Below, in pieces: positions 26,115 to 64,000 of a DNA stretch of 64,000 nt (its first letter is position 1; the number at the start of each line of letters is the position of its first letter). This stretch comes from Aldrovandia affinis (lineage: Eukaryota; Chordata; Actinopteri; Notacanthiformes; Halosauridae): assembly GCA_029706075.1 (NCBI GenBank), contig JAINUG010000109.1:1392501-1456500 (forward strand). Reading direction: 5' to 3'. The notes under the pieces are model-generated. The model was not told where the DNA came from. It worked only from the letters and a program-made list of their open reading frames with translations, and did no database searches. The position numbers were made by a program, and so were the translations under genes.

Positions 26115-27284
26115 TTACCCTCATTGCGGCCAGGGGACGCGCTGCTCAGCAAGCTGGACAGCTAAATGTCCTGGACCCCCCTTTGCGGCTATGACAGCTA
26201 CCACTCTTCTGGGAAGGCTTTCCACAAGATTTTGGAGTGTGTCTGTGGGAATTTGTGCCCATTCAGCCAAAAGAGCATCCGTGAGGTCAGGCACTGATGT
26301 TGGATGAGAAATCTGCATTTTAATTCCTCCCAAAGGTGTTCAATGGGGTTGAGGTCAGGGCTCTGTGCAGGCCAATCGAGTTCCTCTACACCAAACTCGT
26401 CTAACCATGTCTTTATGGACCTCGCTTTGTGCACAGGGGCACAGTCATGCTGGAACAGCAAAGGGCCTTCCCCAAACTGTTGCCACAAAGTTGGAAGCGC
26501 CCAATTGGCTAAGATGTCTTTGTATCCTGTAGCATTAAGAATACCCTTCACTGGAACTAAGGGGCCTATCCCAAACCCTGAGAAACAGCCCCAGACCATT
26601 ATCCCTCCTCCACCAAACTTTACAGTAGGCACTAGGCATTCCGGAAGGTAGCGTTCTCCTGGCATCCGCCAAACCCAGATTCGTCCATCAGACTGCCAGA
26701 TAGTGAAGCATGATTCATCACTCCAAAGAACACGGTTCCACTGCTCCAGAGTCCAGTTGCGGTGTGCTTTACACCACTCCAGCCGACGCTTGGCATTGTG
26801 ATGTGAGGCTTGTGTGCAGCTGCTCGGCCATAGAAACATATTCCATGAAGCTTCCGACGCACAGTTCTTGTGCTGGTACTCTGTAGTGAGTGATGCAGCA
26901 GATGATAGGCGATTTTTACGTGCTATGCGCTTCAGCACTCATCGGCCCCGCTCTGTGAGTTTGTGTGGTCTACCACTTCGTGGCCGAGCTGTTGTTGCTC
27001 CTAGGCGCTTCCACTTCACAATAATAGCACTTACAGTTGACCGGGGCACATCTAGTAAGGCAGAAATTTCACGAACTGACTTGTGACAAAGGTGGCATCC
27101 TATGACAGTGCCGCGTTTAAAGTCACTGAGCTCTTTACGAACCATTCTGAATTCGAAATGTTTGTCTGTGGAGATTGCATGGCTATGTGCTGGAGTTTAT
27201 GCACCTGTTGGCAATGGGTGTGGCTGAAACACCTGAACTCAGTAATTAGTAGGGGTGTCCACTGACTTTTGGCCATATAGTTTA
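26115..27284 (-). mobile_element. Tc1-like transposon with nearly complete transposase
   Basis: Two minus-strand frames, 27145-26939 and 26938-26198, together cover a Tc1 transposase. The first carries the helix-turn-helix region (VREISALLDVPRSTVSAIIV, then GRPHKLTERGR). The second carries the DD34E core: [39 protein letters not shown]. They are separated by a frame break at 26938/26939. One end, TGTCCACTGACTTTTGGCC (about 27256-27274), is present; the other end is not clear. Likely non-autonomous now. Confidence 0.85.
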
Positions 27285-43452: not shown

Positions 43453-43606
43453 TCAGATGGTGGTGGGGTCTGACTCCTTGGGCCCGCTGCGCACCAGATG
43501 CTCCAACTGGCCGGAGTCGGAGACGTCGTAGCTCGTCTTGTATTTTGCCAAGATCTTCATCAGGGGGCGGAGCTTCAGCCACCACTGCTCCTTAGGAATT
43601 CTGTGA
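43453..43606 (-). CDS. pfkp: PFKP last coding exon and stop
   Basis: 154 bp with acceptor CCTGCAG and stop TGA at 43453-43455. Encodes [37 protein letters not shown] and the tail [13 protein letters not shown]. The body is near-canonical; the tail after QLEH is typically isoform- and lineage-specific. Confidence 0.95.
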
Positions 43607-46600
43607 CTGCAGGGAGGGAGAAAGGAAGGAAGGAAAATCAGTGGCACAATGTTGAATGTAGGTCGGGTTGTCATTCAAAGGGTGTGGGGGTCAATTCCAT
43701 TTCAGGTCTATGTCAATTCAGGGGATATTCATCAAAATTCAATTTGTGAACTGGAAAAATGCCCACAATGTTCTCCAAGGATTATTTTCCCACACTTCAC
43801 TGGATTAAGTGCATTGAACTCCAACTCTGCTGCATTACAAATATGCAATGAAAAAAATACTACAAATATATACAGTGGGAGGGGGCGGCGGATGGTGTAG
43901 CGGTCTAACGTGTGGTGTGCGCTGCCTGTCAGGGACGCGGTTCGAAACCCGTCTCTACCAGACCCCGATCGGTCGGCAGCCCCGATTGGGAGGCCGCCTT
44001 GGGTCCAGGGGGAGGGTGAGCTGGCACGAGTCCGTCGAGGAGAAGGTAAAAAGCGTCCGTGGAAGAATTTCCGTTTGGAAGAGGCGGAAACAATCGGCCC
44101 GGAATGAGTGTCTCACCCCGGAGGACGGGCGGCGGACTCGTGGAGGTGGGTATAATTGGCAACCAAATTGGGAGGAAAAACGGCAAAAAATTTGAAATAA
44201 ATGTTTAAAAATAAATATATATACAGTGGGTTCGGAAAGTATTCAGACCCCCTTAAATTTTTCACTCTTTGTCATATTGCAGCCATTTGCTAAAATCAAT
44301 TAATTTCATTTTTTTTCTCGTTCATGCACACACAGCACCCAATATTGTCAGAAAAACACAGACTTGTAGACATTTTTGCAGATTTATTACAAAATAAACA
44401 CTGAAATATCACATGGCCATAAGTATTCAGACCCTTTGCTGTGACACTTGTATATTTAACTCAGGTGCTGTCCAATTCTTCTGATCATCCTTGAGATGGG
44501 CCTACACCTTCATTGGAGTCCAGCTGTGCTTAATTATATTGATTGGACTTGATTTGGAAAGGCACACACCTGTCTATGTGAGGTCCCACAGTTGACAGTG
44601 CATGTCAGAGTAAAACCAAGCCATGAAGTCCTAGGAACTCTCCATAGACCTCCGAGATAGAATTGTGTTGAGGCATAGATCTGGGGAAGGGTATAAAACA
44701 TTGCTAAAGCATTGAAAGCACCCAGGAGAACAGTGGGCTCCATCATTGTGAAATGGAATAAGTTTGAAACCACCACAACTCTTCTTAGAGCTGGCCGTCT
44801 GGCCAAACTAAGTAACCGGGCAAGAAGGGACATGGTCAGGAGGTGACCAAGAACCCAATGGCCACTCTAAGAGAGCTTCAGAGTTCCTCTGCAGCGATGG
44901 GAGAACCTGGTAGAAGGACAAACATCTCTGCAGCACTCCCATCAATCAGACCTTTATGGTAGCACTTGGCATTCAGCCAAAAATGTCAATTTGTGTCTCA
45001 TCAGACCGGATAATCTTTTTCCTGATGCTCTTAGAGTCCTTTAAGTACCATTTGGCAAACCCAGGTGGGCTGTCATATGCCTTTCACTCAGAAGCAGCTT
45101 CCGTCTAGCCACTACCATAAAGGTCTGATTGATGGGAGTGCTGCAGAGATGTTTGTCCTTCTACCAGGTTCTCCCATCGCTGCAGAGGAACTCTGAAGCT
45201 CTCTTAGAGTGGCCATTGGGTTCTTGGTCACCTCCCTGACCATGTCCCTTCTTGCCCGGTTACTTAGTTTGGCCAGACGGCCAGCTCTAAGAAGAGTTGT
45301 GGTGGTTTCAAACTTATTCCATTTCACAATGATGGAGCCCACTGTTCTCCTGGGTGCTTTCAATGCTTTAGCAATGTTTTTATACCTTCCCCAGATCTAT
45401 GCCTCAACACAATTCTATCTCGGAGGTCTATGGAGAGTTCCTAGGACTTCATGGCTTGGTTTTTACTCTGACATGCACTGTCAACTGTGGGACCTTACAT
45501 AGACAGGTGTGTGCCTTTCCAAATCAAGTCCAGTCAATATAATTAAGCACAGCTGACTCCAATGAAGGTGTAGGCCCATCTCAAGGATGATCAGAAGAAT
45601 TGGACAGCACCTGAGTTAAATATACAAGTGTCACAGCAAAGGGTCTGAATACTTATGGCCATGTGATATTTCAGTGTTTATTTTGTAATAAATCTGCAAA
45701 AATGTCTACAAGTCTGTGTTTTTCTGAAAATATTGGGTGCTGTGTGTGCATGAACGAGGAAAAAAATGAAATTAATTGATTTTAGCAAATGCCTGCAATA
45801 TGACAAAGAGTGAAAAATTTAAGGGGGTCTGAATACTTTCCGAACCCACTGTATATATACAGTGGGTATAAAAAGTAATTACCCCTTTGGCATTTTTCAC
45901 ATTATATTTTCTTACTCCATGGAATCAAAATGGATGTAATTGTATGTAAACTTGCCACTGACCAAAAAACAATACTCTATAATGTCAAATAAAAAACTAT
46001 TTTTGTTAACTAATTACAAATAAAAAAACAGACAATAATTGATTCACTCCCCTTGAATACTTGTTAGAAGCACCTTTAGCTGCAATTACAGCTATGAATC
46101 TATTTGAAGTCTCTACCAGCTTTTCCCATCTGGACACTGCAATTTTTGCCAATTCTTATTTACAAAATTGCTCGAGCTCCAAGTTGGATGAGGAACATTG
46201 GTGAACAGCAATTTTTAAAATGTTCTACAGATTTTCAATGGGATTGAGTTCTGGGCTTTGACTGGGCCACTCCAGATCTTCCCACTTGGTATCAGGGGAA
46301 GGATATAAGAAGATTTCAAAGACTTTGAATATCCCCAGAGCACTGTTAAGTCCATCATAAAGAAATGAAGAGAATATGGCACAATTGAGAATTTGCCACC
46401 CTCAGGCCAAAACAGAGCACCTGGAGCACACCACACTTGTTAAGGAAGCCACCAAGAGGCCTATGGCAACTCTAATAGAGTTGCAGTTTTAATTCATTAA
46501 CAGTCTTAATTAGTCTACCTCCTTGGTCAAGGGGGTGAGCTAATTAGTGAAATCAGGTGGTGTAGTGTATGGTTGGCACAAATACCTGCAGACACTGTGG

Positions 46601-49443
46601 CCCTCGAGGCCGGGAATTTAATAGCCCGGGTCTAGAGAGTATCTTGCACTGTGCCAAGGCTGGACTTCAATACCCCAAATGTCTCTGCATCTACTACACA
46701 ACCTGGCAAGCTGCTCCATGCAGTAACAACTGAAACTTTTTTAAATGATTTTGCTAACAGCTCAAATGTGTAACAAGGATACTAATATGGCTGCTGGTTT
46801 TGAGTTTCTGCAGCAGGTCATTCTTTGTTCAAATAGGAAGAAACTGAGAGCTCAGATTAATAAGAGAGAGGATAAAAATGAGGTGAATTGTCATACACAA
46901 AGTCTGTCTCTTCCTGCAGCTGGAAAACAGGCTGGAAAACGAGGGCACGTCGACGCATTCCCAGCAGGCACGCCGAGTCATCCGTGTTTGCAAACACCTT
47001 CCCTGTGGGCCGGAACAAAACCATCAGTGTGTATCTCAACATACTTACCCCGATATATTCACATCCTGAAACCCAACATACTCACACACTCCCCGACATA
47101 CTCACACACCCTGACATACGCACACACCCCAACACCCTCCCATATGCATGCATTGTTACACATTCACTACACACACAAGCACACACAGTTACATATGGAA
47201 ACTACACAGGATATAGATATACACATGTATATTTTTATGCTTTAACCAAACTTGGGTTAACTACAGGGCACTGGTAGTTTAAGTTAAGGGATGATTGGAA
47301 GGTAAATATCAGGACACAGAATTTTTGCCTCTATACAAGTTACTTTTTTCAATATGCTCATCTTTACATTAAAAATAAAAAATGATTTAGGAGGCCTCGG
47401 GTAGCATCATGGTCAAAGCATTCGCCCCCGAATGCAAGTTGCCTACTGCAGCCGCGGTCTGCCAATTGCCACCCCAGACTCTTGGCCAGAGTCTGACCGG
47501 TGCAGCCAGGTTTTGAACCGTGGCTGCAGTAGACAACTTGCATTCGGGGGTGAATGTTTTGACCATTACGGTAAGGGAGGAGGGATGGTGAGTTGTCACG
47601 GGCTCGCCGAGAAGCATGAAAGGTGTCCCTGTACGGGAGAAATGGGCTTGCCTCCCAGGAGGAGTGGCAAGCTCGTGGAAGAAGGGTAAATTGAAATAAA
47701 TAGAGGGTATAATTAGCTACCAAATTGGGGGGAAAATGGGAAAAATTGAAGAAAAAAAAAAATAAATATTTTAAAGAATTACTTCATTGAACATAAATGC
47801 TATTATATGAATATAATGCAGTATAATATTAGCAATAATGTGTGCTCTGTAAGTGAAATGGGATTAATGCTACTCAAGCTGTGGGACAAAACGCCAACCT
47901 CAATTAATGAATGGATTTACCTTCATCTAATGTCATCCATGGAAAGAGAAAAAATGGCAAAGAAACAAAACAGAAAATCAGATTTAAACTACTTCAGCAG
48001 CCCTGCTGTGACACGCTGGGAAAACGGAAACTGAAGCTGTGTAACTTCCTGGACGAAAGGACATTTTGAAACCATTCATTTCCAGCTTTTCCTTCATCGT
48101 ATTGAAGTATGTGACCATCAAAATGCTGTTATTTGAATGATATGCAGTTAATAAACTCCTTTCATTAAGGAATCTCCCAATCAACTTAAAAGTAAAATGG
48201 CTAAAATAATATGGAACTACAACTCCCATGAGAGCCCAACATTTCATAGCGACCGATGGGACCTGCAGTTGTAGTTCAATTTTGTACTTTTTACGATGAT
48301 CGCCCAATTCCTTAATAAAAGCGTTTGCTTATCACCAAATAATTCAAGGAATAACTCACAGACATTTTTTTCAAAGTTTAAATCATTATTCTTTTTTAAT
48401 ATGATGAAGAAAATGTTGCGTGTCATTGGAAATGAATGGCTCCCGGTCCCCAGTTTCGTCCAGTAAATTCCCGTCAGTAGGGCTGTTGTTACTAGGGCTT
48501 TTCCCCTGCGCATTTCAGCAGAAATCAATCAAACTTTATTGTAAGTACACATCAGATAGTCGCACAAAACAGGCTGTGCTCAGCTGGTCAATGACGTAAA
48601 TGTTAGGGAAGGCATGAGTGCTGCACGAGATCTCTCTCACCAAACTCTATTCGGCGGCACTGCAAAAAGTCATACTACCTGTTTCTTTTGTTTTTTTATT
48701 AAATGAACAATTACCACAGTAGGTTTGGAATTTGAATGTATGAATTCATAGGCTGTGGAATGGGGGGGTGGCGGCACCCAAGCCATGCCCAGATCAACTT
48801 TTGGACATCAGGAAGTTAGACAGCAAGAAAAAAGCAAAACATTGTTTTTTAAATATTTCCGGAAAATGTATAATGAATCTGCCCTTTCCTCTCTGATTAC
48901 TTTATGACATCATACAGGATTAGCATTAAAACCCAGCAGCACATCCGGTACCCACTATGGGAGTTGTGATTGGACAGGGAGTGGGACCTGGCCTCAGCGC
49001 AAAACAATCAAATTTAGCTTCTAACATTAGAAGAGTTTCAAAGAAGTGAGAGGCCTTTTACAATTGTCATTAATAAGCAGTCTTGTCAGAATAATTACTA
49101 TCACCTAACAGTGAAATACGAGCCCTGCGCATCTGGAATTCCCTAGCTAGAGAGAGTACTAGCTAACAGTACTAATTGTGTTTAGTTTTATAAAGCCAGC
49201 TTGCCAGTTAGGTTTGCTAGTCAGCTAGCTAGCTAACTTTTTACAATCATGGGCAATCAAAGGATTATAACAGACCTTGGACATCTCTGAAATAAACGGA
49301 CAAGTGGACAGGTAAGACAAAGGGGCTTTCATTTTTAATCAAAGTGCATGTGTTGATAAATTACAAAGTTTGTTAGGTTAGTAGCTAGTACTAGCCTTAT
49401 CTGGTTGGATTGGTTTGTGTGTAATATCATTCAATAGCTAGCT

Positions 49444-49525
<82 letters not shown>

Positions 49526-52500
49526 AGATACTGATAATCAGTGGTGCAAGGGAAAAGAGCAAGAATGTTTTTTATGTTAGCTAACATCAGTGAAGTTGCA
49601 CAGTGGGAAGCAGGCATGCTTACTGAGTTTTGACCGAGTAGCTAATGTTAGTGTTGCAACTGACTTTCTCTTAAGTATATTATGTAGCTATATTTTCTCC
49701 GGATTGTACATAGAAGTGTTTAAAATGGACACTTTTCTACTTTCACTGTAGAGCTTGGTGTTGTCAGGGTTCATACTGCACTCGGTTGACCGGTCAGTCA
49801 GGATTTGTAGGGTGTAATATTTTGGGTCATACAGTACAGTCATTGTAGCCTACGTACCTATATTATTATTATTAAGTACATTCTGAGATATCTGGCCTTT
49901 CAACACTATAAACCCTTGGTATGTTCAACCAAACCAGCGTCTGACAAAATCTCTATATCATATAATATAATAATATAATAGAGAACAGCTTGTTCGTATT
50001 GCCGCTTTGCCTACTACCTTGTCTGTACGTCTCCTTGAGCTTTTTAGAGATCCACTGCATGGCTTTAGCTGAGATCTTGGTTCCAAAGTTTCGGTCAAAA
50101 GGTGATGGTGCACCTCCCTGCAAGAATACAAAGAGGGGGAAAAAAGACATTTGGTGATATTTTTCACTGAACTGGTGTTTTGTAACACACACACATATGG
50201 TTTTTGAATGTTTTTTGTGAAATGTATGAGGAGAATTGATAAGGCATCAAGCGGAACATGCCATGGCTTTGTTTACCGCACCTGCTGCATGTGACCGAGC
50301 ACGTTCTTCCTGCAGTCGAACACGCCCTTTCCTTCCTCAGTATACAGCTGGTAGATGAAGTCGGTGGTGTAGTTTTCGCTGCTGTTCTCATTTCTGCAGT
50401 GTTACGGTATACAGAGTGAAGTATTAAAAAAAGAGACAAACCTTTTGATACCACCGTCATTTATTTGTTCCTTCAGAAATTTATGTAAAATAATAATAAG
50501 AATATCGTTTCCTTCTACATTTTCACAAAAATCCATTATATTTTCAAAATGAATTTCAAAATGAACGGTGAATAAAACCACACAGCGAATGAACAGACAA
50601 GCACACCCAAAACAAGCATTAAAAAAAGCTATACGCATATATTATCAGAGCATATCGGTGTCATAATCACCGATTCTGATAACTTTGTTGTTAGGGGGTT
50701 TTTGTGGGGTTTTTATCTTGCAAAGCCAAATATTGGCCGATATATCGGTGGAAAAGGTCAATCTATCAAGCTCTCCTCTGTTCCTTTCATTCCTATCAAA
50801 GCATTGTGGTAAAGGTCTCTCTACTCCCACACTGTGTACATGCTTTACCTAAGGACCAAGCCTCTCTGGATACTGGTCTTCATCTTCTGTGTCAAGTGCT
50901 CCACGTTGGACTGAAACATTAAAAACAAAAATAATAATAATTAGCACAAATCGTGTATCACAGCTAGTGCTTCTTCTTTTTAAAATTAGTATGGAAATGG
51001 ACCCTGTCCTCTTAATATTCTAGATTTTTTTCCACAAGCTGTATGAAGCTGTGAAGTTAATGTATTTGCATGTGCTGCATGGTATGGCATTTGCCACATT
51101 CCTCTGAATATGTACTTAATGTCCTGGTGCTGTTACAAGAATATCACAGGTGTGAACCTGTCAGACTGAGGGACGTGGCTCTGACTATGTTTCTAAATTG
51201 CCAACAGGTGGCGCCTTTGTTCCTTGGAACGGTCACCCAGTTTGTGGCTTAGAGATCAGTCCAAAAATGGTTTCAATGTTCTGATTTTCATTTTTTTGGT
51301 ACTCAGAAAAAATCGCAGAGATGACCCAAATTCCATATGGACCTAATTTACTTTGGAGTCACAGAGGTTCTGGCATCAGATGGTTATAGTCAGGGGTGCA
51401 CATAAGTGGTACGCCAGTATGCATTCTGCGTCCTCAAATGTTAATTGTGTACCAAGCAAGACGACAAACTTTTTAAACATAAAAGCCTAAGAGCAAGAAT
51501 CGCAAACAACCAATTAAACGTGCCCAGTCAGAAGGACTGCACTCCCCTGGAATAAAAGTAATCTACAATGTCCAAAAACACAAGTCAAATGAAAAAAGTG
51601 CAAACGTGAGGGTGAGAATCAAAAGTCCAATTCTCCATATTTCTATTTTTCAGAATACGAAACAAAACAAAATCAGAACACTGAAACAATTTTTTTACTT
51701 TACAATATGAATAATGAAAAACTAAATTCTAATTGATAATTGGTAAATGGACTGTTACATACTAAAATGCAAATACAGCAAGAACAATTTACCTTCTTTA
51801 AAAACAAGATTAAAACACACTCAGACAACATTTCTTACTCAATACTCAATATAGGTAACCTGGTGGACAGCATACCTGAGGGATAAATGCTATTTTTTAT
51901 TACAGGGTGGTGTCAGTCAGTGCCAAGGGGTTAACAACCCCCTAAATGTTTTATTATTAACTGCACAGCCCGGAGCGGTTTATTCCACTTATACCATGGC
52001 TACTTGCATGGAAATTGTGAAAATTCTCCATGGAGTTTAGTTTTCTATTTTTAATGAATGTTCAGAAATGTTGGGAATAGTTTTTTCACGTGGAAGTTGT
52101 AGGGTAAAATGTATAAATAAAGATGGAAAAAGTCTGATTTAGCATGTTTTAATTTCAGGCTGTAAGGCAACAAAAAAATACATATTTCAGATGGGTGTAG
52201 ACTTTAAATGGGCACTGGGTATATGTATGTATATATATATTGTGGCATCACAGGGGGACGTGTGGTAGAGGAGTGCTGCATTCCCCTGCTGATCGGTGGC
52301 CACTTCACAAAATGGCCGCCGTTGTACAAACTACAAGCCCCACAATGCAACACGACTCCAGGTGTAGGTGCTTGGGCCACCTAATCAAGGCCAGGATAAA
52401 AAGCCCACACGCAGGACAAAGGAGGGAGGGAGAGAGAGGGGAGCCGAGCACATGGCTGGAAGGAGCTGGAAGAAACAAACCACACCAAGGAAAGTAAACC

Positions 52501-55500
52501 TTTTGAATTGAGAATTGTTTTCTAAGAAGAGGATTATTGCTGGGATGACTTGTAACATTTTTGATTGAGGCATTTTTTGAATGTTTGGATTTTGGATTAT
52601 TGTTTGGAGGAAAGTACCCATTGATGCCCTGAGGAGAAATAAACCTGGACTTTAAGTTTGAACTATCTGTGTTTTGCCTGTTTTTGTGTGTTGTTGCACT
52701 GCCCCACACCGACCTGCCCTGGTCAAACCTCTCATGATGTCACAATATATACATACAGTAATTGTTTTTTATGGCATCAGAAGAGCATGTATTGCACTGT
52801 CTATCCTGGGTATTACCAGCTAAACCAGATCAGCCGTGGGCACCCTGACAGCTTCAGTCACCACCCTGACCTAAACGCTGATTAGAGCTTAACATTCAAG
52901 CAATAATCATTCTCTGGCTATTAATAACCGGCCCATATGTGCCCAACTGGGTCACCTGCTCCCTCTGAGAATAGAAGCCCGTTGACTGTCATCCGTCTGA
53001 TTACCAACCAGGAAATAGCTAGACAAAACCTTCACACACTACTATCTGACCAGGAAACAGCAAAGACACTAACTTCACCTACTACTGTCTGACCAGGAAA
53101 CAGCCAGACACAAGACCTTCACATGCTGCTTTCTGACCAGGAAACAGCCAGACACAAGACCTTCACACACTACTGTCTGACCAGGAAACAGCCAGACACA
53201 AGACCTTCACACACTACTGTCTGACCAGGAAACAGCCAGACACAAGACCTTCACATGCTGCTCTGACCAGGAAACAGCCAGACACAAGACCTTCACACAC
53301 TACTGTCTGACCAGGAAAAAGCCAGACACAAGACCTTCACATGCTGCTCTCTGACCAGGAAACAGCCAGACACAAGACCTTCACACACTACTGTCTGACC
53401 AGGAAACAGCCAGTGCCCCACCTAGGAATTGAACCTGAAATCTTTGTGTTACAAGCCCAGTTCCCTAACCATTATACTATACTGCCACATGGTATGCCAC
53501 TGTCTGGCCAGAAAACAGCCAGACACCAGTGCACAGTACAGGTTGTGGCCTTTAGTTACAGTTTGCACAGATGACTTGCTTTTCATAGTGTGACAGGTTT
53601 AGCACACTTATTGGTACTGTCCTTCAGATGAAATGTTATAACAAGGTCCATTAAAGATCCCATGGCAGAATATATACTTTGTGAGTATAGGGGTGATGGC
53701 TCTCTACATCTGGCCATCTTATTATCCCCTACATCTGATTGGCTACACAATCGCTTGCTTTCCACACCCACTTTTTTTGGTTGCTTTTGCAGTTTGTCTC
53801 TACAAATTAGATATTAGTTCTCACTTGACCTACCTGGTTAATGAAATAAAGGTCAAATAAATCATTATTGGGAGTTTAGGAATGTACTTTTTCATGCTTT
53901 TGCATGTATTTTTGTGCATGAGTTTCATTTGTTTTTATCCTTTGATACATACTCAAATTCTGAAATGTGATTTTTCTGTAGTTCTTTAAGTATTCATGGA
54001 CAGGATTCAGATATTTTTAGGCCAGCAGAAATTAGTCTCTGTCTATACATAGTTAATGCAATGCATCTGATGCTTCTTTTCCAACATTGTCTGCAATGTC
54101 CCTGACAAATAAAGAAATATAAAAATATAAATAAGTTATTAAAAAACACATTGTATTTGCCTCACCTGGAGGTCCCGGATGTCGAAGGGCTCCTCGAAGA
54201 TGTAGGCAGCGTCGGCCCCCGCGGCCAGTCCCCCCACGCTGGCCAGGTACCCGCAGTACCCTCCCATGGTCTCGATGATGAAGACGCGGCGCTTGGTCCC
54301 GCTCGCTGACTGCTTGATGCGGTCGCACGTCTGACACGGACACTCAGAGGAGTCAAGGACGCCGAACACGGCGACAAGTTCACATCACAGAGGTTACACA
54401 TTTCCCGGCTCCGGGCATCAAGAATAAAACCACAGGCAAACAGGTAACGACACACAGACGGGCACTGGCAAACGTACACAAGCACCAGGTCGTAAGTGCT
54501 TTAGCTTTTGCTGACACAAAATGCACATGCACTTTCAGGCTTTAATATTCTGCAGATCTAAGTACAGTCATAAGTCCTACTTTGTCATCACAGGCAGGAT
54601 AGTTTAGTTAACTGATTCAGTTAACACCAGGGGAGCTCCATTTTCACAATACATATTTTATATATTTTTTGCACAGACTTATACCTATTAAATAAGCATT
54701 TTCATGGGAAACTTCAGTTGCTGCTGTGGGTCTATATTCCCATGTGCATCTATTTTCCACCAAGAATTAAGACTCTCCCAGAAAGGGTCACACATCTGTT
54801 CAGAAACACATTTTACCCAGACTGACCTACTTCTTACTGTATAAATGCTTACAAATGAACTGAAGCATTCACAATTTTCACAATTTCATATGCCATTTAA
54901 ATACAAGACTATATATATTAGGGCTGACCCCATTTAGGGCTGAAAATGTATGCATTCACTACTGTAATTCACTTTGGATAAAAGCGTCTGCTAAATGGCA
55001 TATATTATTATATTATTATTATTATTATTTAGTTGACTGGACGATTATTTGATCGATGGGCTGTTGGTCGACCGAGATTTGTTTTGGTCGAGCAGTCGCG
55101 CGAAAATAATAAAAATATATTTTTAAATTCTCCACGCAGCATGAGACATAAAGTTCAAAAATAATCCACTCTGGGTGCTGCGAGTATGGCAGTGAGACAC
55201 ATAGCTAGATTATGTTCTCTTTAAATTATATTACAGTTAAGGTAATAGTAAGAATAATTTCAGCTAATAAAAGTAACATTTTATAATAATTGTGTTTTGC
55301 TAATTGTACAGTTTAAATATTTATAACTAACATGCGTAACACCCCCTTTCATGTAGCCTATATTGTATCCTTCTTGTTTTAGGCACGCGAATGTGCATTT
55401 GCCTAGCCTAAGATTTGCCTACAGTTAAGATTAGTGATATAGCCATACTTTAATTACTCATTTCGATATAACCTAAGAACATAATGTCAAAGAAAAAATC

Positions 55501-58500
55501 TAGAGTATGGCAGCCTTTCGTTTTAATCGCGAACGATCCAAAAACAGTGGAATGTAAACTTTGCAAGCGCCTTTTCCAAGGCAGGGTTTATCGTTAATAA
55601 AACGAGGAGCAGCCTTTTGCCAAAAAATGTGGACATGCTAGTGTTCCTGTGCCATAACATGAAACGACTGGGGAAGTAAGCCATAGGATGGTCTCCGACT
55701 CGAGTAAGTTATTTTCGATAGGCTATAGCAACTTTATGTTCAGCTTTAGGCTACAATTTAAGACATTAGGCTATGTGTGATCATTTGTTTGTTAGCCTAT
55801 TTTTTTGCAAAAGAGATTTTAAATCCCAATGAGACCAACCTTGTTAATTAAATAAAATATAGCCTACGCATTAGAATGTGTTATGGTTGTGGTCCAATAA
55901 AAGCATCAGCCTATTATGTGGCCATACCGCAACTTCACAAGCGCAACGGCAGAATCTGCAAGGGCAGCAGGAAGAGTATTTTTTTCCTTTCAAGTAATCT
56001 TGAACTACGGCTTAACTAAGTTATTAGCCTATTGTTAGTCATTTGTGTCATTCACTTAAGAAAGTTAAAAAACATGAGACAAGCATATAGTTGTATTTAT
56101 TAAAACAAATAGGGTGTGTCATATAGAAGAAAAAAAAGTTTCGACCAATCGACCAATCTGAAAAAACTGTTGGTCGACCAAGATTTGTTTTAGTCGGGGA
56201 CAGCCCTAATATATATATATATTCTAGTGCCAATGGCAACAGGCGATTAAGTAAAAAACATTGATAAAAATGTACTTTATAGGGTTATGTCTAAAAATGT
56301 GAAATGTAACCTGCCAATTAACTCCAGTGAGCTGAAATAATTCTGAACTGCACGATTGGTGATTTGTTTGACATTGAGAAAAGCATTGAGATCTTGCTTA
56401 CCTCCACAAGGGCATTGAGGGATGTGTCAGCTCCGATACTTAGATCGGTGCCAGGCAAATTGTTACTTATGGTGGCGGGCAGCATACAGAGTGGCACGCA
56501 AAACTCCTCATAGTTGGACCGAGCCTCGTACAGCTGGAGCAAAGACTCTAGGGCCTGGAGCAGGCAGCACAGAGGCGATTAGACCACCAGGGGGAGCGCT
56601 CAAGCTCAGAACCGACAGACACTCCTAACACGTGTGTCCGTGTCCTGCTGCGGGTGGCTTTTTCCGTGTGACAGGGGCTTTGGCTTCCCATTGGCAGAGA
56701 GAAGAAGGGGGCGGGGCTGGGAAACGAGAGAGGGGGTTGGCGCTGGGAGGTGGACATCGAAGCGCATGCTGTTGACAGCACAGCTTGGCCTGGTGACGCC
56801 CACGCTCTTTCAAACCCTGGCATATATTCGTTCCACAGGCAGGGGGTGCTGCTGGGCCAGTTATTGGTCAGGACTAGTTGTGTGCAGGCACAGAGACGGT
56901 GCTGAAAGCAGGATGGTGGCCAAGCCGGGTTCAAGCCAACATTTTGCTGTACTCAACAACACTGGTGAATGATTCATGCACTAATGCATCTTTTTTAATT
57001 GTGTTAAAATTATATATTCTATATTATATTAATTCATCCTCTAAATAATTTTGTACTTGAATTCCCTATTGTTTTTATTTATTTTAATTTCTCCCTTTAT
57101 TCTCCCCACCTTGAAATCACCAATTGTGAGTTCTAAGTCAAAAATACTTTGCCATGCTTAATGAAAGAACTATGCAAATAAAATAAAATCAGTAATTATG
57201 GGTAAAATAGCTTAAACACTACATTAGAAAACACAGCATTTTTAAAAAGCCAGTATCATGCAGATAGCAAAATATCCCTAACAGCGTCACATGCAAACGT
57301 GTTAATCACCTGCTATTTCTACTAATATCACCGTGCCTCTACCACAGCATGATATGCTGAGAAACTGGTTTGTGCGCTTGACGGGTTAGTGAAATGCTAC
57401 TGAGCAGAGTAAAATGTTGAGTTCAACCTCAACTTTGACCACGCATCTTTGTGTACAAAATAAGCACAGCAAAGTGCAGGCTCAACAACATTGCAGGACG
57501 TAACATGCCACGCCATAGCATGCCTTGGGTTCTACTTACCTAGAACACTGGCACGGACCTGGGCTTTATTTTCACCAGCAACACCAGCCACAGGACAGCA
57601 ACACAAGGTCTTACCCAATGAAACCTCCTATTCCTCTCCACCATATTCCGGCAAGATGTTACTTTAACATAGCTATATTGTAGCACAATATTCCTATTGG
57701 TCATGTACTATCGTACATGTGCTGACTGTGACTGCCAAGCATGAATATGTGGAAGTAACATGTGGTCCAAAAATTAAGAATTGGTCAAAATTGCATTGGT
57801 CAAATTGATATTTCCAGAATTTGCCTGGGAATTTACCATCAAATTCCCATTAGAGCCTTTGTTCATTTGTATTTTTTTAATTTTTTATTACACAACATCT
57901 TAATGTTGTTGTTTTGTAAATCATTGTGGTGGTCTTGTGTGCTGCTTGATTGCCTGGCCTGTGATGCTGGTAAAAAAACAGGGAGCCCCGAGCCGTGACC
58001 AGTGATCCCAAATTTGGAATGGGCCGGCAGCATTAACGCCGACGGTGTCCCACCCCTCCCAGCGCACACTTACATCGGTTATAGCATTCAGAGCCGTGTC
58101 TGCCCCGATGCTGAGATCTGAACCCGGAATATTGTTGGAGACCGTGGCGGGTACCATAACCATGGGAACGCAGAGCTCGTCATGCGTCCCACGGGCGGCT
58201 AACAATTCCATCAGTCCCAGGTAGGCCTGCAGATCAGAGCCACGTACCGCAGGTGAGAGGAGGAACATGACATACGGCCAAGGGAAGAGCCAGGTCTATC
58301 ACCACGGAGACAGCGTGACACAGACAGGAACACAGGATCACAGGATGGGGGGGGGGGGGGCTTTTAAACATGGAGGGGAATGGAGATGTGGGGGAGAAAT
58401 GACCCTGAAAAAGCCAACTTGTCAAAAAAGTTAAATAGATGCGTAGTATTTTTTGACAAATATTTCCAGTTTCCTTGTGTAATTGGTTCATTTTTCATTT

Positions 58501-61375
58501 CATGTATTTTTTACATTTTGGGTTAGATCTACAGGGTTAGCTCTACTGATGTGACATTCAAAGAACAGAGAATGAAACATGAACCAATTATGATTTTTTT
58601 ATCAATAAAAAGATGTTATAAAAATAACACGACTAAGAGCATTTAATGCTTCCAGTTTTTTTCTTGGAAGTATACAAAATAGCTGTTGATAATGAAAGCA
58701 GCCAGAGCGCTAATGATGCTATAGGACAAGTGGCTATGACAGTGAAACGGCCCCGGTAATACTGCCACTCCACTCAGTGTCCTAATTCCCATGAAGTGGA
58801 AAATGCATCCTCGTTCATGGTCTTTAAAAACAATTAATGAAACCCACAATTGAATGAGGTGGAAAAGGGTCAGAAGAAAAACTGGAGAAAACATGTATGC
58901 AAACTGTATACGAGACATCGCTACAAAGAGAACAGAGCTAAGGAAAAGGGTCATGTTCAACAATAACTCTAAACATTACTACACTAAACTACAATCACGG
59001 AACATCATAAACAGTCTGTTTATAACAATGTACATTTTTCATTTGGCATAATATAGTTAATATTATTTCGTATCCAGAACGTTATCATTAACTTTTATTC
59101 ATTCAGGGATTATTCTCATCTTAAATGTCATACACAGTATGTTTTTACATTCTGTACATACGTAAAATTGTAATCAATGATACATCACAAGCACTCAGTT
59201 TATGAAGAATACACAAAATGTCATCAACGTACCTCAAATCCACCAACTACAAGTAATGCATTGATGTTATGAATTCGCATTTGTTCAGCGATTTTTTCCA
59301 TATGTTTTGCAGGAAGTGTTCTGCAAATGGACACATGATAGTTCATGTAAAATCCTTGTTAAAAAATAGTTTAATGGCACAATACAAATTTGAACACAGC
59401 CGGGAAGAATTCCATGAGGAAATAATAATTATATATATATATATAATATATATACAGTGGGGTCCAAAAGTCTGAGTCCACTACCAAGATCTGTTTGTTT
59501 TCATCATTCATCAAAAACTAACACAAAAGTTTTACTCAGGAGAACAATTTTACCTCTAACTACTTCACTAATCTCTGCTGACCTAATTACAAACAGCTGC
59601 AAAAACGTTTGCAAAGGAAGTGTCCTTTTTCAAGATTAAACCATCTGCAGTAGCAACAAGAACACATAAAGAACCATATTAATTACATCAATATCCGGTA
59701 TGCATTGTTATAAAACTCACACTATGTATAAGGAGTGTCCATGTTTAAAAACTTAAATGAAAAATAAGGTGTCACAACATCTGTTTCTCTGTGCGGTTTA
59801 CAGGACAAAACACCATCTTGACCAGTCAGAATCTAGTCAGCGTATTTAACCAAGCTGTGGTGTAATTCATAATAATGAGCTTTACCGTTTGGTTCCTAAA
59901 AGGGACCCGCCTTGGCCAGTCCAGCCCCCAACATCCCCCCACTTGATCTCCTTAATCTGGGGACAGGAAAGAGACACATTCAGCACAGTGCTGCCAGCAC
60001 CCTATGAGGCCCAGACTGTGAGGCTCAGACTGTGGGCCTAACCTTAGTGTGAAGGCGCTTTATGCACATTATAAGAGATGTTATTTTTACTCATTGTGGA
60101 GATTTTCTTTGACCTGTGAATTAGCGATATGCCTGTAATTACAGACTGACCAAAGAGAACTGCTTTTTAAGATGATCAGTTTGTATGAATACCCAATGGG
60201 ACCAAACTTGGGCAGCCTTGATATACAGTACACAGCTACAGAAAAAAATATACAGTATATATATATACATATATATATATATATACACACAGTGATACAT
60301 TTTTTATTTATATAAACACTTCAGGGGTGGAAGCTGAAAGGGACACTGGTGGTCTGTCACTAAGCAGGAACACACCTGTTGCCATGGAGTTGCAAAGACT
60401 TTGATGTCACACTGCCCTAGTGTATTGTTTGGTTACATAAATTTTCCGGTGAACCAGAGTCACCCGGTGAGAGGGGAGGATTTGTGTTGTTGGTAAAGAA
60501 GATAAGAAAAAAACTGTTTAAAATATGCCATTGTGGTTGATCCGTAAAGATTTGTTCCTGGAGAATCGATGTGATTTAGTCCGTAGTGATTTTGCCCATA
60601 AATGCCTTCTATATTTGTTTGTCGCTCTGGACAACAGAGCAGACATGCGTCTGCTGCATGATCACATATAAATACATGTAAACCTTGTTCCTTGTTTCAT
60701 AAATAATTTTGTAACATGACAGCATATTAGCCTATCTCTTGCTCTAGCTGTGATTGTTCTTGCCATTTTAAGTGCACTTGTTGTAAGGCGCTCTGGACAA
60801 GAGCGTCTGCTAAATGTCTGAAATGTCAAAGTAAATGAGTGCTTCCCTGCCAGAAGAGCGCTAAATCATTTATGAAAAGTCTGTCTTTCAGTCAGGCATC
60901 CCTGTGCCTAGCTGTGTGCCATTGCACCAGGCCCTGTCCCCCTGCCTGAGAGTATCCAGGCCTAGGAGAGGTGTTCCGGGAGAATAATGAGCTTACTGTA
61001 ATCGGAGTCCTTTATCTCCTTGCAAGGACTTATCATCACAGTAAAGGTGACACAGCCGCCACCCGCCCTATCACATGTGCCAACAACTTAACTTTGCCCT
61101 CTCCCATTCGGCCAATCAGCACTCGTTATGCCCCAGTGGCGGAATACTTGTTTTTCTCACATTTTAAAATCAGCATGAATCAACACACTCACTCACACAC
61201 ACACACAATAACAGTAACATCTAAATATAAATGTGATTTAGGGCAGATTCATTACAGCTATACTTCCTCCGCTCTATCAGTAAAGACTTAAATGTGTAAA
61301 TTAATCTTGTATGGCAGTGCTGGAACCGATCTCCCTGTTGCTAGGAAGGGAAAGTACAAGGGAGATGACAGACAA

Positions 61376-61438
<63 letters not shown>

Positions 61439-61726
61439 TTCTTATGTCATTTTAGAATTTCACAGACTTGCCAGATGGCTGTTTGAGCACCTGCATGGAC
61501 GTGTCATTCATGCTGTGTGGAACGTTCCACTGCGAGAACCCAGAGAAATGTGGTTCCTAAAAATCCATAAGTGCCGTACCTGTCCCTTATAGAAGCCCTC
61601 GAACCCATCGTTGATGGCGAACATCTTGTGCCCCTCGGTGATGCCGACTCGGACCGCCGAGCGGACGGCGGCGTTCATGCCTGCCGCTGGGGCACCGACG
61701 TTCATCACTGCCACGTTGAACGTGCT
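43453..61726 (-). CDS. pfkp: PFKP C-terminal half (6-phosphofructokinase, platelet type), with an alternative exon
   Basis: Cytosolic glycolytic enzyme converting fructose 6-phosphate and ATP to fructose 1,6-bisphosphate; acts as a tetramer. In 5' to 3' order the exons are 61580-61726, 59886-59956, 59233-59320, 58074-58226 (or 56402-56554), 54166-54330, 50849-50910, 50282-50393, 50018-50117, 46897-47002 and 43453-43606, totalling 385 residues plus stop with every junction in phase. This is the regulatory C-terminal half, which in animal PFK1 carries the fructose 2,6-bisphosphate and allosteric sites. Landmarks are [63 protein letters not shown] and [14 protein letters not shown]. The catalytic N-terminal half and start lie beyond 64000. 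The P isoform is chosen because the gene converges on PITRM1. The extreme C terminus ([11 protein letters not shown]) is lineage-specific. Confidence 0.94.
43872..44217 (+). mobile_element. Full-length tRNA-derived SINE
   Basis: Head with A box TGGTGTAGCGG and B box GGTTCGAAACC, body with CCTTGGGTCCAGGGGGAGG, and 3' end CAACCAAATTGGGAGGAAAA followed by an A-rich tail. It lies in the PFKP last intron, antisense to the gene. Confidence 0.85.
44224..45851. mobile_element. Palindromic (fold-back) Tc1 element
   Basis: Arms 44224-44962 and 45112-45851 are reverse complements over about 740 bp with few mismatches, around a 149-bp spacer. The outer ends are CAGTGGGTTCGGAAAGTATT and its reverse, flanked by TA. 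Each arm carries the 5' half of a Tc1, including the helix-turn-helix coding region. The spacer is a more distal Tc1 piece. Located in the PFKP last intron. Confidence 0.93.
45857..46500 (-). mobile_element. Truncated Tc1 element (same family as 11225)
   Basis: Begins ACAGTGGGTATAAAAAGTAA immediately beside the palindrome. The following text (GAATCTATTTGAAGTCTC, CAATGGGATTGAG) parallels 11470-11960. The 3' part is missing. Confidence 0.7.
46897..47002 (-). CDS. pfkp: PFKP penultimate coding exon
   Basis: 106 bp, phase 1 in and phase 2 out. Encodes [20 protein letters not shown] then [14 protein letters not shown] and two bases of the next codon. Only the donor written GT^GTATGA keeps the frame into the last exon; using the GT two bases earlier gives an immediate stop. 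The junction codon becomes valine (TDFV-HRIP), where vertebrate PFK1 normally has glutamate. The exon lies inside duplicated segment copy B. Confidence 0.9.
47395..47770. mobile_element. SINE with fold-back head
   Basis: Arms 47409-47458 and 47517-47566 are 50-bp inverted copies around a 58-bp loop. The second copy continues into a full SINE body and an A-rich tail at about 47745-47770. It interrupts copy B text that is continuous in copy A near 10840. Confidence 0.75.
49447..49522. repeat. (GT)n microsatellite
   Basis: About 38 uninterrupted GT dinucleotides. Confidence 0.97.
50018..50117 (-). CDS. pfkp: PFKP exon
   Basis: 100 bp, phase 0 in and phase 1 out. Encodes [20 protein letters not shown] then [13 protein letters not shown]. 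The donor GTAGTA is weaker than consensus. Confidence 0.94.
50282..50393 (-). CDS. pfkp: PFKP exon
   Basis: 112 bp, phase 2 in and phase 0 out. Encodes [20 protein letters not shown] then [17 protein letters not shown]. Acceptor ACTGCAG, donor GTGCGG. Confidence 0.95.
50849..50910 (-). CDS. pfkp: PFKP exon (small)
   Basis: 62 bp, phase 0 in and phase 2 out. Encodes [20 protein letters not shown] plus the split R codon. Acceptor TTTCAG, donor GTAAAG. Confidence 0.94.
50911..52240 (-). other. PFKP intron, no gene recognised
   Basis: AT-rich DNA without clear repeats. Confidence 0.5.
52241..52744 (+). mobile_element. Solo LTR
   Basis: 504 bp starting TGTGGCATCA and ending TGATGTCACA (10-bp inverted ends, one mismatch), flanked by ATATAT on both sides. 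A TATA-like GATAAAAAG lies near 52397 and AATAAA near 52640, in the right order for an LTR. No internal region remains, consistent with LTR-LTR recombination. Antisense to PFKP. Confidence 0.75.
53005..53420 (+). repeat. Minisatellite, ~45-48 bp unit
   Basis: About nine units of the type CTGACCAGGAAACAGCCAGA plus CACAAGACCTTCACA and a variable ACACTACTGT / TGCTGCT end. In a PFKP intron. Confidence 0.92.
53413..53490 (-). mobile_element. tRNA-like SINE head next to the minisatellite
   Basis: Reversed: GTATAGTATAATGGTTAGGG (A-box-like) and GGTTCAATTCC (B box). The cloverleaf is not complete, so a true tRNA gene is unlikely. Confidence 0.6.
53590..53860 (+). mobile_element. V-SINE-like core and tail
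   Basis: CTGTCCTTCAGATGAAATGT, ATTAAAGATCCCATGGCA and the tail ACCTGGTTAATGAAATAAAG resemble fish V-SINE central and 3' domains. Confidence 0.5.
54166..54330 (-). CDS. pfkp: PFKP exon
   Basis: 165 bp, 55 codons, phase 0 to 0. Encodes [40 protein letters not shown] and [15 protein letters not shown]; donor GTGAGG. This is the most conserved exon of the C-terminal half. Confidence 0.97.
54919..56208 (+). mobile_element. hAT element remnant with BED zinc finger
   Basis: Ends TAGGGCTGAC and ACAGCCCTA, with AT-only 8-bp flanks on both sides. Inside, GGTCGACCGAGATTTGTTTT near the left end and its relative near 56170 form long sub-terminal repeats. From 55483 a short frame reads [12 protein letters not shown] then [12 protein letters not shown], a BED zinc-finger start that ends in a stop. 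The rest of the transposase is absent. Confidence 0.75.
56402..56554 (-). CDS. pfkp: PFKP exon, downstream alternative (L-like version)
   Basis: 153 bp, 51 codons, phase 0 to 0. Acceptor context is CTGCCTGCTCCAG and the donor is GTAAGC. It begins [20 protein letters not shown] and contains [19 protein letters not shown], ending SLNALVE. It is a second version of the block encoded at 58074-58226, with 29 of 51 residues identical, the same length and the same phase. The frame is open and no residue of the conserved core is lost, so it does not look like a decaying duplicate. The LLQLYEAR and ATISNN variants recall the liver-type isozyme. It is probably a mutually exclusive exon. Confidence 0.85.
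56555..58073 (-). other. Intron between the two alternative PFKP exons
   Basis: 1519 bp, AT-rich. A GC-rich stretch at 56580-56960 has no supported gene; a SINE-tail-like T-rich piece lies at 57070-57130. No obvious complementary docking sequence was found by eye. Confidence 0.5.
58074..58226 (-). CDS. pfkp: PFKP exon, upstream alternative (canonical P-type)
   Basis: 153 bp, 51 codons, phase 0 to 0. Acceptor context is GATCTGCAG and the donor is GTAAGT. It begins [20 protein letters not shown] and contains [19 protein letters not shown], ending ALNAITD, which reads into TCDRIKQ of the next constitutive exon. This version matches the usual P/M-type sequence. In animal PFK1 this block lines the C-half ligand site that evolved from a former active site. 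Confidence 0.94.
58227..59232 (-). other. PFKP intron
   Basis: A G12 homopolymer lies at about 58348-58359. No gene seen. Confidence 0.5.
59233..59320 (-). CDS. pfkp: PFKP exon
   Basis: 88 bp, phase 2 in and phase 0 out. Encodes [20 protein letters not shown] then ALLVVGGFE. It ends exactly at GGFE, the position from which either of the two alternative 153-bp exons can follow. Confidence 0.95.
59455..59660 (+). mobile_element. Solitary Tc1-type end
   Basis: CAGTGGGGTCCAAAAGTCTG after an AT repeat. No opposite end and no transposase. Confidence 0.55.
59886..59956 (-). CDS. pfkp: PFKP exon
   Basis: 71 bp, phase 0 in and phase 2 out. Encodes [20 protein letters not shown] then [18 protein letters not shown] is diagnostic for animal PFK1. 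Donor is GTAAAG. Confidence 0.95.
60690..60838 (+). mobile_element. L2-like LINE 3' tail
   Basis: GCGCTCTGGACAAGAGCGTC and TGCTAAATGTCTGAAATGTC match the 3' tail type seen at 630 and 30380. In a PFKP intron. Confidence 0.65.
61379..61436. repeat. (CA)n microsatellite
   Basis: About 29 CA dinucleotides, 140 bp from a PFKP exon donor. Confidence 0.97.
61580..61726 (-). CDS. pfkp: PFKP exon (start of C-terminal half)
   Basis: 147 bp, 49 codons, phase 0 to 0. Acceptor AG is complementary to 61727-61728; donor GTACGG follows position 61580. Encodes [20 protein letters not shown] through [11 protein letters not shown], the nucleotide-fold entry of the C-terminal half. Confidence 0.95.
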
Positions 61727-61959
61727 CTGCGAACCACAGAACGCAGTCAGGACACGGTCAGAACACATGACGCCGTGTCCGGGCACCCGAGAACGCTACA
61801 GCACCAGATGGCACCACAGAGCACAGTTCACTCTAGACCTGGGTCAAATGATCAAATTAGTGATGGAAGGATGAGGTAGTCATGACAAGTAGCTGTCAAT
61901 CACTGACTTTTTTGAACCAATCAAAATAATACACATTTGTACGGTTTTAACTCTTTGTG

Positions 61960-62002
61960 GCCAGTGTCAAACGTTGTAACCACTGGACCACGCGGGAGGC
62001 CT
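61960..62002 (-). mobile_element. SINE head remnant
   Basis: GGCCAGTGTCAAACGTTGTA and CCACGCGGGAGGCC match the inverted head at 1990-2027. Confidence 0.6.
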
Positions 62003-62239
62003 GGTTTGAACTCTTTAGATGCCGCTGACACAGTCAGAATTTTCAACAAAACATTATAATAAACAAACGAACGTGCAATCAATATGAAAGAAGAGTTTCT
62101 GTTCTGAATATTGTCTGCAAAAATAGATGTTTTCTTTTAAAACTGTTGGAAAGCTTCAGGCATTCTACCAGTGTCTAAAGGGTTAAAGTATATAATATAA
62201 TATAATATAATATAATTATTAACAAAGGTCTGTTTCGGT

Positions 62240-62358
62240 CAGGGAGTGCTGTTACTGAGGAGAGGAGGAGAGAAAAAGGGAGGGAAGATGAGGAGAGGGG
62301 AGAGGAGGTGAGGAGAAGAAAAGTGAGGGGAGGAGAGGAGAAGATAGGGTAGGGGAGC
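62240..62358 (+). repeat. Polypurine tract
   Basis: Nearly pure A/G over about 115 bp (GAGGAGAGG-type). In a PFKP intron. Confidence 0.85.
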
Positions 62359-64000
62359 TAAATGCTGATATTACCAGTGCATCTCTCACTATTTATGGCA
62401 GGGGTTAACTCCGTAACTCCGCTAAATCAATTAGCTAATTAGTTGTATACACCAACGCCAGTTCACTTGAAGATTAGGCCACAGTACAATGTTTCATATA
62501 GAGACACAATGTCAGTCTTCAGCTGTCATGCATGAGCTCATCAACAAATGAGGCTAAAATGGAAGGTCACATAAATGATTGGGGATATGTAAGAGCAGAA
62601 GTTGGGATGAAATCCAGAAATGGATCCGGCCCTCCGCGCCCCCCCCTAGATCTACAGCCTCAGGTGGGGCAACACTGCACCGGGCTCCAGCTCAGACCCG
62701 AGCGGTCACACCATGAGCGCCGTGCAACAAAACCCCTCCCCCTAGAGTGGGCATCACGCACAGTATGGGGCCGTCTATTCAAACAACATCGGCTCTGCCT
62801 CTTCCTGTCCCTAAAACCTTTTTGTCATCTGATCAACAATGAACCCCATCATTAATAGAATTCCTCATAAAATTAATAATTGAAGGCATAATGCAATAAA
62901 AATTGTGTATATTCAATAAGCCTATTTAATGTCAAGGGAAATGGAAGGTGAATTTCAGAGTTTGAAAGACTGAACTGTTAACCGTTGCGTACCAGAGTTG
63001 CCGGTGCTCTGTACCATCTGGTGAATGACACACAAAATGAATCTCTCGCACGCATCACATTCATAGCACCCTTTCATAACGGCACGTCACCGCGATCCAC
63101 ATAACTTCACGTGCGCTGCTGCCACTGCTGTTAGGCTGCGTTTGCGCTGATACACCGTCACAAACACACCGTGTGCCTGCCCTCTCACGTTGAAGCTGCA
63201 GGGTAGCATTGCTGAGCACCTTTCAAGCTTGGGGAAATATGCCATAGCATCTAAAGCAAGAAGCGCTATTCTCAGTCATTTAAAAAAAAAAATGTTTTCT
63301 TACAACAAGCAAGGCTATAGAATCAATTGAATCATTTTCACGCAAATATATAACAGTGTGTGCTGTTTTCGTTTTGCAGTATTCTCAATGTTAAACAATT
63401 GTCTCACAATCGAGACAAAATATAATTAAATTCAAATGATTAGTATGTAAAGTATATGAATTATTCTCCATCCAATAATTGATTTCTATTTATAATTTAT
63501 CATTATACATATATACATATATATATATATGTATTAAATAATTTATCATTTAAAATTAAGTATAACTATCATATAATTTTGGATGGACCATCTGCAGCAA
63601 AATATGCAGCAAACTATGCCATTTTTTGGCGCTTCAGTTAGTTTTTTAGAGGGTGGGGTGGATTTAAAATCTACAAAATAAAAGTAGCCTACAGCCCCTT
63701 TGGCTCCTGGCTGTGGAACTACAGAAATAGATCAAGATGAGTTTGGCCCATAAGTTATTTTCAATAGAGCCTTCTGCAATAAAATATGCAGCGCACGCCA
63801 TGTTCGAATTAAGGTCAAATCTTTTACTGTACTGCAATTTAAAAAAAAACTGTATTTAGTGCTTGGTGGGTGGGGGTTGATTTAAAATGAACAAAATCTT
63901 GTGGGAGTCCAGAATTAGATGAAGAGTTTGGAGTTTGGCCCGTGAGTTGTTGTATCTATATCTGTCGGGCAGGGCGGCACCTGAGCCATGCAGAAGAGGG
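62359..64000 (-). other. PFKP intron, 5' end of gene not reached
   Basis: No further PFKP exon recognised. 63588-63960 contains two diverged copies of a ~185-bp unit (each with AAATATGCAGC, GGTGGG-TTGATTTAAAAT, and GAGTTTGGCCC). Confidence 0.55.

Follow-up and report, generated by a model that had tools for sequence, protein, structure and literature searches.

Tandem alternative exons in pfkp of Aldrovandia affinis: a probable ancient switch of a fructose-bisphosphate site and a putative long-range RNA stem

The stretch analyzed here, hereafter the window, comprises 64,000 nucleotides of contig JAINUG010000109.1 (C102:1392501-1456500 in our numbering) from the 1.22-Gb genome of Aldrovandia affinis, an elopomorph teleost according to a taxonomy look-up. 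It contains part of pfkp, an intact gene on the minus strand. A second pfkp gene occurs on contig C1114, and the two are designated copies a (window) and b. Each was modeled with 24 coding exons, whose lengths are identical from copy to copy. The assignment of the gene to PFKP, initially made from the letters alone, was supported. Two tandem pairs of exons, 8 with 9 and 17 with 18, occur in the gene, and in both copies all four exon combinations, each using 22 of the 24 modeled exons, encode 786 residues with a single terminal stop. Exons 17 and 18, hereafter A and B, specify two versions of the same 51-residue block. It is likely that they constitute an ancient switch of the fructose-bisphosphate (FBP) site whose setting would be steered by a long-range RNA stem. 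What the data show is the homology and frame of the two exons, selection on both, their presence from sharks to birds, and deposited isoforms that differ in the block only.

A and B are each 153 bp long, in phase 0/0, separated by 1519 nt, and identical at 29 of 51 residues. The acceptor and donor of A are ctgatctgcag and GTAAGT, respectively; those of B are cctgctccag and GTAAGC. Exons 16 and 19 join either version in frame. In all these respects, the sequence-only reading, which had described the two minus-strand exons as interchangeable, was correct. The A block matches that of human PFKP at 42 of 51 residues. Copy b contains the same two exons with unchanged lengths and phases. Between the copies, A had an omega (the ratio of nonsynonymous to synonymous divergence) of 0.155 and B one of 0.172, as compared with 0.037 across the 703 codons that lie outside the four alternative exons. 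In A and in B, nonsynonymous changes made up a smaller share of the differences than neutrality predicts (p about 8e-4 each), so both exons are kept, yet they are freer than the remaining protein. Both are under purifying selection and, with the same exons, lengths, and phases recurring in the second gene, the pair exceeds chance. Equal length, phase, homology, and adjacency are features that A and B share with tandem-duplicated mutually exclusive exons. The four alternative exons also had lower synonymous divergence (pooled 0.35 versus 0.55; Fisher p 1e-4; per-exon rank test p 0.001), as expected if splicing signals are carried there; the constitutive exons 16 and 23 were nearly as low, at 0.39 and 0.35.

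That B might instead be a decaying relic, out of use in the window gene and rightly left out of its deposited model, is highly improbable. This model, P0194 (AAFF_G00021790), indeed contains A only, and the window B has L33 at a usually conserved position that is V in 23 of 24 B sequences. However, P0194 also fuses exons 8 and 9 and is hence no careful model, and B has an open frame, consensus splice sites, the omega and nonsynonymous deficit given above, and a conserved island upstream. The deposited model of copy b, P0078 (AAFF_G00146190), includes exons 8, 9, 17, and 18. Each of the two deposited proteins is identical to our model of its gene assembled with the exons just named.

Among other PFKP proteins, B was found from sharks to birds; absence from related fish together with neutral substitution, which would have counted against the pair, therefore does not hold. 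Specifically, it was seen in Callorhinchus, Mobula, sturgeon, Amia, many teleosts, frogs, one salamander, turtles, one crocodilian, birds, and squamates. No mammal was named among the protein matches listed, and evidence for the human exons therefore comes from published work. A mutually exclusive exon event in human PFKP, with V539I in the activator site, is listed in passages of Lam et al. 2021 (PMC7954323) and Martinez-Gomez et al. 2022 (PMC9741552), and a passage of the former names residue 539 as part of the FBP site. Block residue 29, V in 25 of 25 A and I in 24 of 24 B sequences, corresponds to human PFKP residue 539, an equivalence derived from chain 4xyj, which has 812 residues for a 784-residue protein. 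Because the human event is in print and both gene and residue coincide (V in A, I in B), the fish pair is, by this residue match, presumably its ortholog. The main-text mentions of PFKP in these two papers include no fish or shark exons, exon 8/9 pair, intron stem, or PFKL-like B. Similarly, among the papers listed by literature searches, no title or abstract start connects an intron RNA stem with PFKP or mentions exons 8 and 9 as a pair. The A/B swap is ancient and already known in human; within these searches, neither the second exon pair nor the stem was found in print. Separately, an excerpt of a review (PMC13343711) places human PFKP among genes with cryptic exons repressed by TDP-43.

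The use of A and B was evaluated using three protein searches, which together listed 254 distinct proteins (P0003-P0256). One list, the best 120 of 142, was ranked on the exon 8/9 region. In the other two (154 proteins), the scores of A and B add up, so double-copy models rank first and no frequency is readable. The 120 comparable models, all annotations, comprised 47 with A only, 49 with B only, 20 with both, and 4 in which neither was recognized; thus, 96 contained exactly one. Moreover, database annotations for 16 fish species hold A-only and B-only isoforms of equal length that differ solely inside the block, by 13-23 residues: Channa argus, Pseudoliparis swirei, Parambassis ranga, Scatophagus argus, Cottoperca gobio, Cyclopterus lumpus, Anarhichas minor, Acipenser ruthenus, Syngnathus typhle, Nerophis ophidion, Myxocyprinus asiaticus, Onychostoma macrolepis, Denticeps clupeoides, Seriola dumerili, Genypterus blacodes, and Mastacembelus armatus. 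Owing to the ranking of the list, these isoforms carry both exons 8 and 9. In several spiny-rayed fish (P0196-P0240 and others), only 13-16 of the 51 residues distinguish A from B, as compared with 22 in Aldrovandia; gene conversion between the two exons could account for this small difference.

These data were weighed against the alternative that B is an additional in-frame exon, with A+B transcripts (837 aa) as a real product, or a low-level cassette exon. We consider this improbable. Although all 154 models of two lists hold A+B, the ranking selects such models; more to the point, both exons occur in one-sixth of the list ranked on another region. The 96 models with exactly one version and the otherwise identical isoforms found side by side in 16 species argue the other way. 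In addition, a protein with this buried effector-site segment twice in a row would probably not fold. AlphaFold models of an A+B protein (P0117) and a single-exon protein (P0160) had mean predicted local distance difference test scores of 52.5 and 55.3, respectively, both poor, and are uninformative on the folding of double-inclusion products. Accordingly, the mutual exclusivity proposed in the sequence-only reading stood insofar as A and B are alternatives; strict exclusivity, for which the evidence is annotated models, is unproven because 20 of the 120 contain both.

PFK1 is one of the main points at which glycolysis is controlled, and it is potently activated by fructose 2,6-bisphosphate (F26BP). 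The block lies within the C-half ligand site, as had been supposed. Its T-(V/I)-SNN core is invariant save for V/I across 25 A and 24 B sequences, and the serine at block residue 30 corresponds to PFKL residue 529 (chain start 500). Ser529 is an O-GlcNAc site that is said, in an excerpt of PMC7702303, to block F26BP binding. Because both versions keep the core and this serine, both should fold and bind the activator. The B block is identical to that of human PFKL at 31 of 51 residues, human PFKP at 30, and rabbit PFKM at 24; the liver-isozyme flavor that had been ascribed to it is thus real, but slight. Based on this slightly greater closeness to PFKL, the B version is predicted to shift the response of the enzyme in a PFKL-like direction. 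The three human isozymes differ in their responses to F26BP and citrate, according to Fernandes et al. In Aldrovandia, V539I and about 20 neighboring changes would tune the activator response, B being shifted toward the liver-isozyme sequence.

The PKM1/PKM2 swap, which involves PKM exons 9 and 10, offers a parallel. Both PKM and PFKP encode glycolytic enzymes with a tandem exon swap; in PKM, according to passages of PMC7954323, the swap alters control by fructose-bisphosphate, as that in PFKP would. However, one PKM isoform is without FBP binding (PMC7954323, same passages), whereas both PFKP versions keep the ligand core, and graded tuning is therefore expected.

The introns preceding A and B each contain an island, x and y, respectively, that is conserved between the gene copies. 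Pairing of x with y was more stable than in all 200 shuffles in copy a and likewise in copy b. The consensus fold of the two copies contains 33 pairs; folded separately, the copies have 16 pairs in common. Cognate x-y pairs scored -34.7 and -31.4 versus -30.9 and -21.5 for swapped pairs, the margin being slight in one comparison. Blocks m1 and m2 in intron 17 may form an inner stem, and their pairing was weaker than that of x and y (Z of -2.0 and -4.3 in the two copies). No second partner for x or y was found among the seven conserved blocks searched; a competing second stem in intron 17 was thus set aside, there being none among these blocks beyond m1-m2. An RNA family was likewise rejected as an account of the introns: between positions 54000 and 59400, the Rfam gathering score was reached solely by a UnaL2 long interspersed nuclear element (LINE).

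Other candidate signals surround B. In the 250 nt upstream of it, 10 PTB-like motifs occur in copy a and 21 in copy b; the corresponding numbers for exon 10 are 10 and 11, and other exons have fewer. A CTCF-like motif just before B, matched to the CTCF consensus, is a candidate site and lies one nucleotide nearer the exon in the second copy.

We propose that exons 17 and 18 are tandem-duplicated alternatives and that a transcript normally takes one, swapping 51 residues of the C-half effector site. The choice would be steered by the pre-mRNA itself through pairing of x, upstream of A, with y, upstream of B. With the stem formed, A would be looped out and the B acceptor would replace that of A relative to exon 16; with the stem not formed, A would be used. 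The A/B balance may vary among tissues under the influence of the pyrimidine-rich tract and the CTCF-like site that precede B. Two observations weigh against this interpretation: 20 of the 120 comparable deposited models hold both exons, and covariation in x-y is weak, with two one-sided changes and no two-sided change between the two copies compared. It is also possible, if less probable in our judgment, that the pair is real but that proteins bound to single-stranded intron elements make the choice (PTB-like proteins on the pyrimidine-rich tract, or pausing at CTCF), the x-y complementarity being incidental. The PTB-like motifs upstream of B and the CTCF-like motif in both copies fit this alternative. 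So does a correlation, noted in part of PMC8373115, between the inclusion of alternative exons and CTCF sites that follow them within about 1 kb, though the distance from A to the downstream site here is about 1.5 kb. Against it, x-y pairing is well above that of shuffles in both copies, and cognate pairs bind better than swapped ones, if only slightly in one comparison.

By way of working, the proposed x-y stem may be likened to docking/selector control, without being classed as a member. Dscam-type systems, as excerpted from PMC6071210, also have complementary elements in flanking introns that loop out an upstream alternative exon; unlike them, pfkp is a vertebrate gene with a two-exon cluster, a single stem found, and no competing selector. 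With OGDH exons 4a/4b, the pair shares an energy-metabolism enzyme and ancient tandem exons. Passages of the OGDH study (PMC7969005) report that ectotherm reporters can also yield double-inclusion transcripts and ascribe exclusivity to distant branch points in a short intervening intron, whereas pfkp intron 17 spans 1.4-1.5 kb.

The second tandem pair, exons 8 (N1) and 9 (N2), consists of 96-bp exons in phase 0/0 that have 16 of 32 residues in common and specify alternative forms of an N-half segment around LNIIIVAEG; N2 matches human PFKP, and N1 resembles human PFKL and PFKM. Ray-finned fish, among them Polypterus, sturgeon, and Amia, have both, as do basking shark, whale shark, and Narcine. 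N2 alone occurred in 38 of 38 tetrapod models counted by name, and no tetrapod was named among the best 120 of 142 proteins of the list ranked on this region; both statements concern models rather than genomes. In the 154 proteins of the other lists, 127 had one N version, 22 had two copies, and 5 had none recognized. Intron 8 contains a hairpin with pair probabilities of at least 0.9, formed by +33..+40 with -57..-64 in copy a and +36..+43 with -57..-64 in copy b (C1114:467624-467905). As a lead only, this modeled hairpin could hinder joining of the two exons. For the intron as a whole, the fold energy was unremarkable (z -1.1 and -1.7), and no blastn match joins intron 8 of the two copies despite the similar arm positions. 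A MAFFT alignment of the arms appeared out of register and was discarded.

Finally, both pairs may predate the split of vertebrate PFKM, PFKL, and PFKP, such that an ancestral PFK spliced two block versions that were later sorted into genes; this origin is rather doubtful. In such a history, PFKM would have kept the A type and PFKL the B type as fixed exons after genome duplication, and PFKP both. In unrooted trees of the C block, A with PFKM and B with PFKL ranked first among the three constrained groupings in each run, without significance. Sites E/Q7, V/C23, V/I29, and S/T36 support it, and site 18 is contrary (most A and B have F, whereas PFKL and PFKM have L). The N block prefers the matching grouping of N2 with PFKM and N1 with PFKL, also without significance. 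With the C block, the within-PFKP alternative, A with B, had approximately unbiased test p values of 0.065, 0.077, and 0.24 in three runs; with the N block, the within-PFKP alternative had a p value of 0.15. For each block, the trees included just two or three sequences of PFKL and PFKM. Tandem copies were not found in PFKM or PFKL of Aldrovandia: within the 30-kb stretches searched, each block occurs once per gene.

Features of pfkp in Aldrovandia affinis (window positions unless noted)
Feature	Position	Strand	Remarks
pfkp part within window, exons 14-24	43453..64000, exons from 61726 down to 43453	-	gene model; exons 1-13 past window end
Exon 16	59233..59320	-	gene model; upstream exon, ends GGFE
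Stem arm x	58277..58347	-	intron 16, 121 to 50 nt upstream of exon A; conserved island between copies
Exon 17 (A)	58074..58226	-	gene model; canonical block (AYLGLMEL...ATVSNN...NAITD); also in copy b
Block m1	57393..57511	-	intron 17; possible inner stem with m2; high-scoring segment pair between copies, E 1.3e-11
Block m2	56889..56964	-	intron 17; high-scoring segment pair between copies, E 0.002
Stem arm y	56629..56695	-	intron 17, 141 to 74 nt upstream of exon B; conserved island between copies
CTCF-like motif CCACCAGGGGGAGC	56584..56597	+	30 to 43 nt upstream of exon B; 2 window matches, 0.06 expected
Exon 18 (B)	56402..56554	-	gene model; alternative block (ALESLLQL...ATISNN...NALVE); also in copy b
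UnaL2 LINE 3-prime element	54951-55004		intron 18; Rfam RF00436
Exon 19	54166..54330	-	gene model; downstream exon, starts TCDRIKQ
Exon 8 (N1), copy a	extended window 68239-68334 (L016 4239-4334)	-	beyond window
Exon 9 (N2), copy a	extended window 67798-67893 (L016 3798-3893)	-	beyond window
Exons 8 and 9, copy b	C1114:467528-467623 and 467906-468001
Exon A, copy b	C1114:479507-479659
Exon B, copy b	C1114:481071-481223

Several further observations were made in the genome. Copy b has a GC-AG intron after exon 19 (donor gcaagt, C1114:482349), where copy a has gtgagg. Window positions 26155-27282 resemble a Tc1/mariner-type transposase, and a similar copy of this stretch lies in intron 23 of the second pfkp gene. 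Two PFKL-like genes at C1778:6137048-6152233 and 6198339-6210074 run in opposite directions about 66 kb apart, and their matched exons are nearly identical. In one of them the matches are broken, and the arrangement is either a recent inverted duplicate or an assembly artifact.

If the ancestral-splicing origin were true, the isozyme diversity of PFK would be splicing diversity that was later sorted into genes. A splice switch in the effector site, kept from sharks to birds, would make PFKP more than one enzyme in vertebrates, and kinetics performed on the canonical PFKP isoform alone may overlook a regulated form. The putative intron stem and the second exon pair render the switch testable, with two short elements and up to four isoforms.
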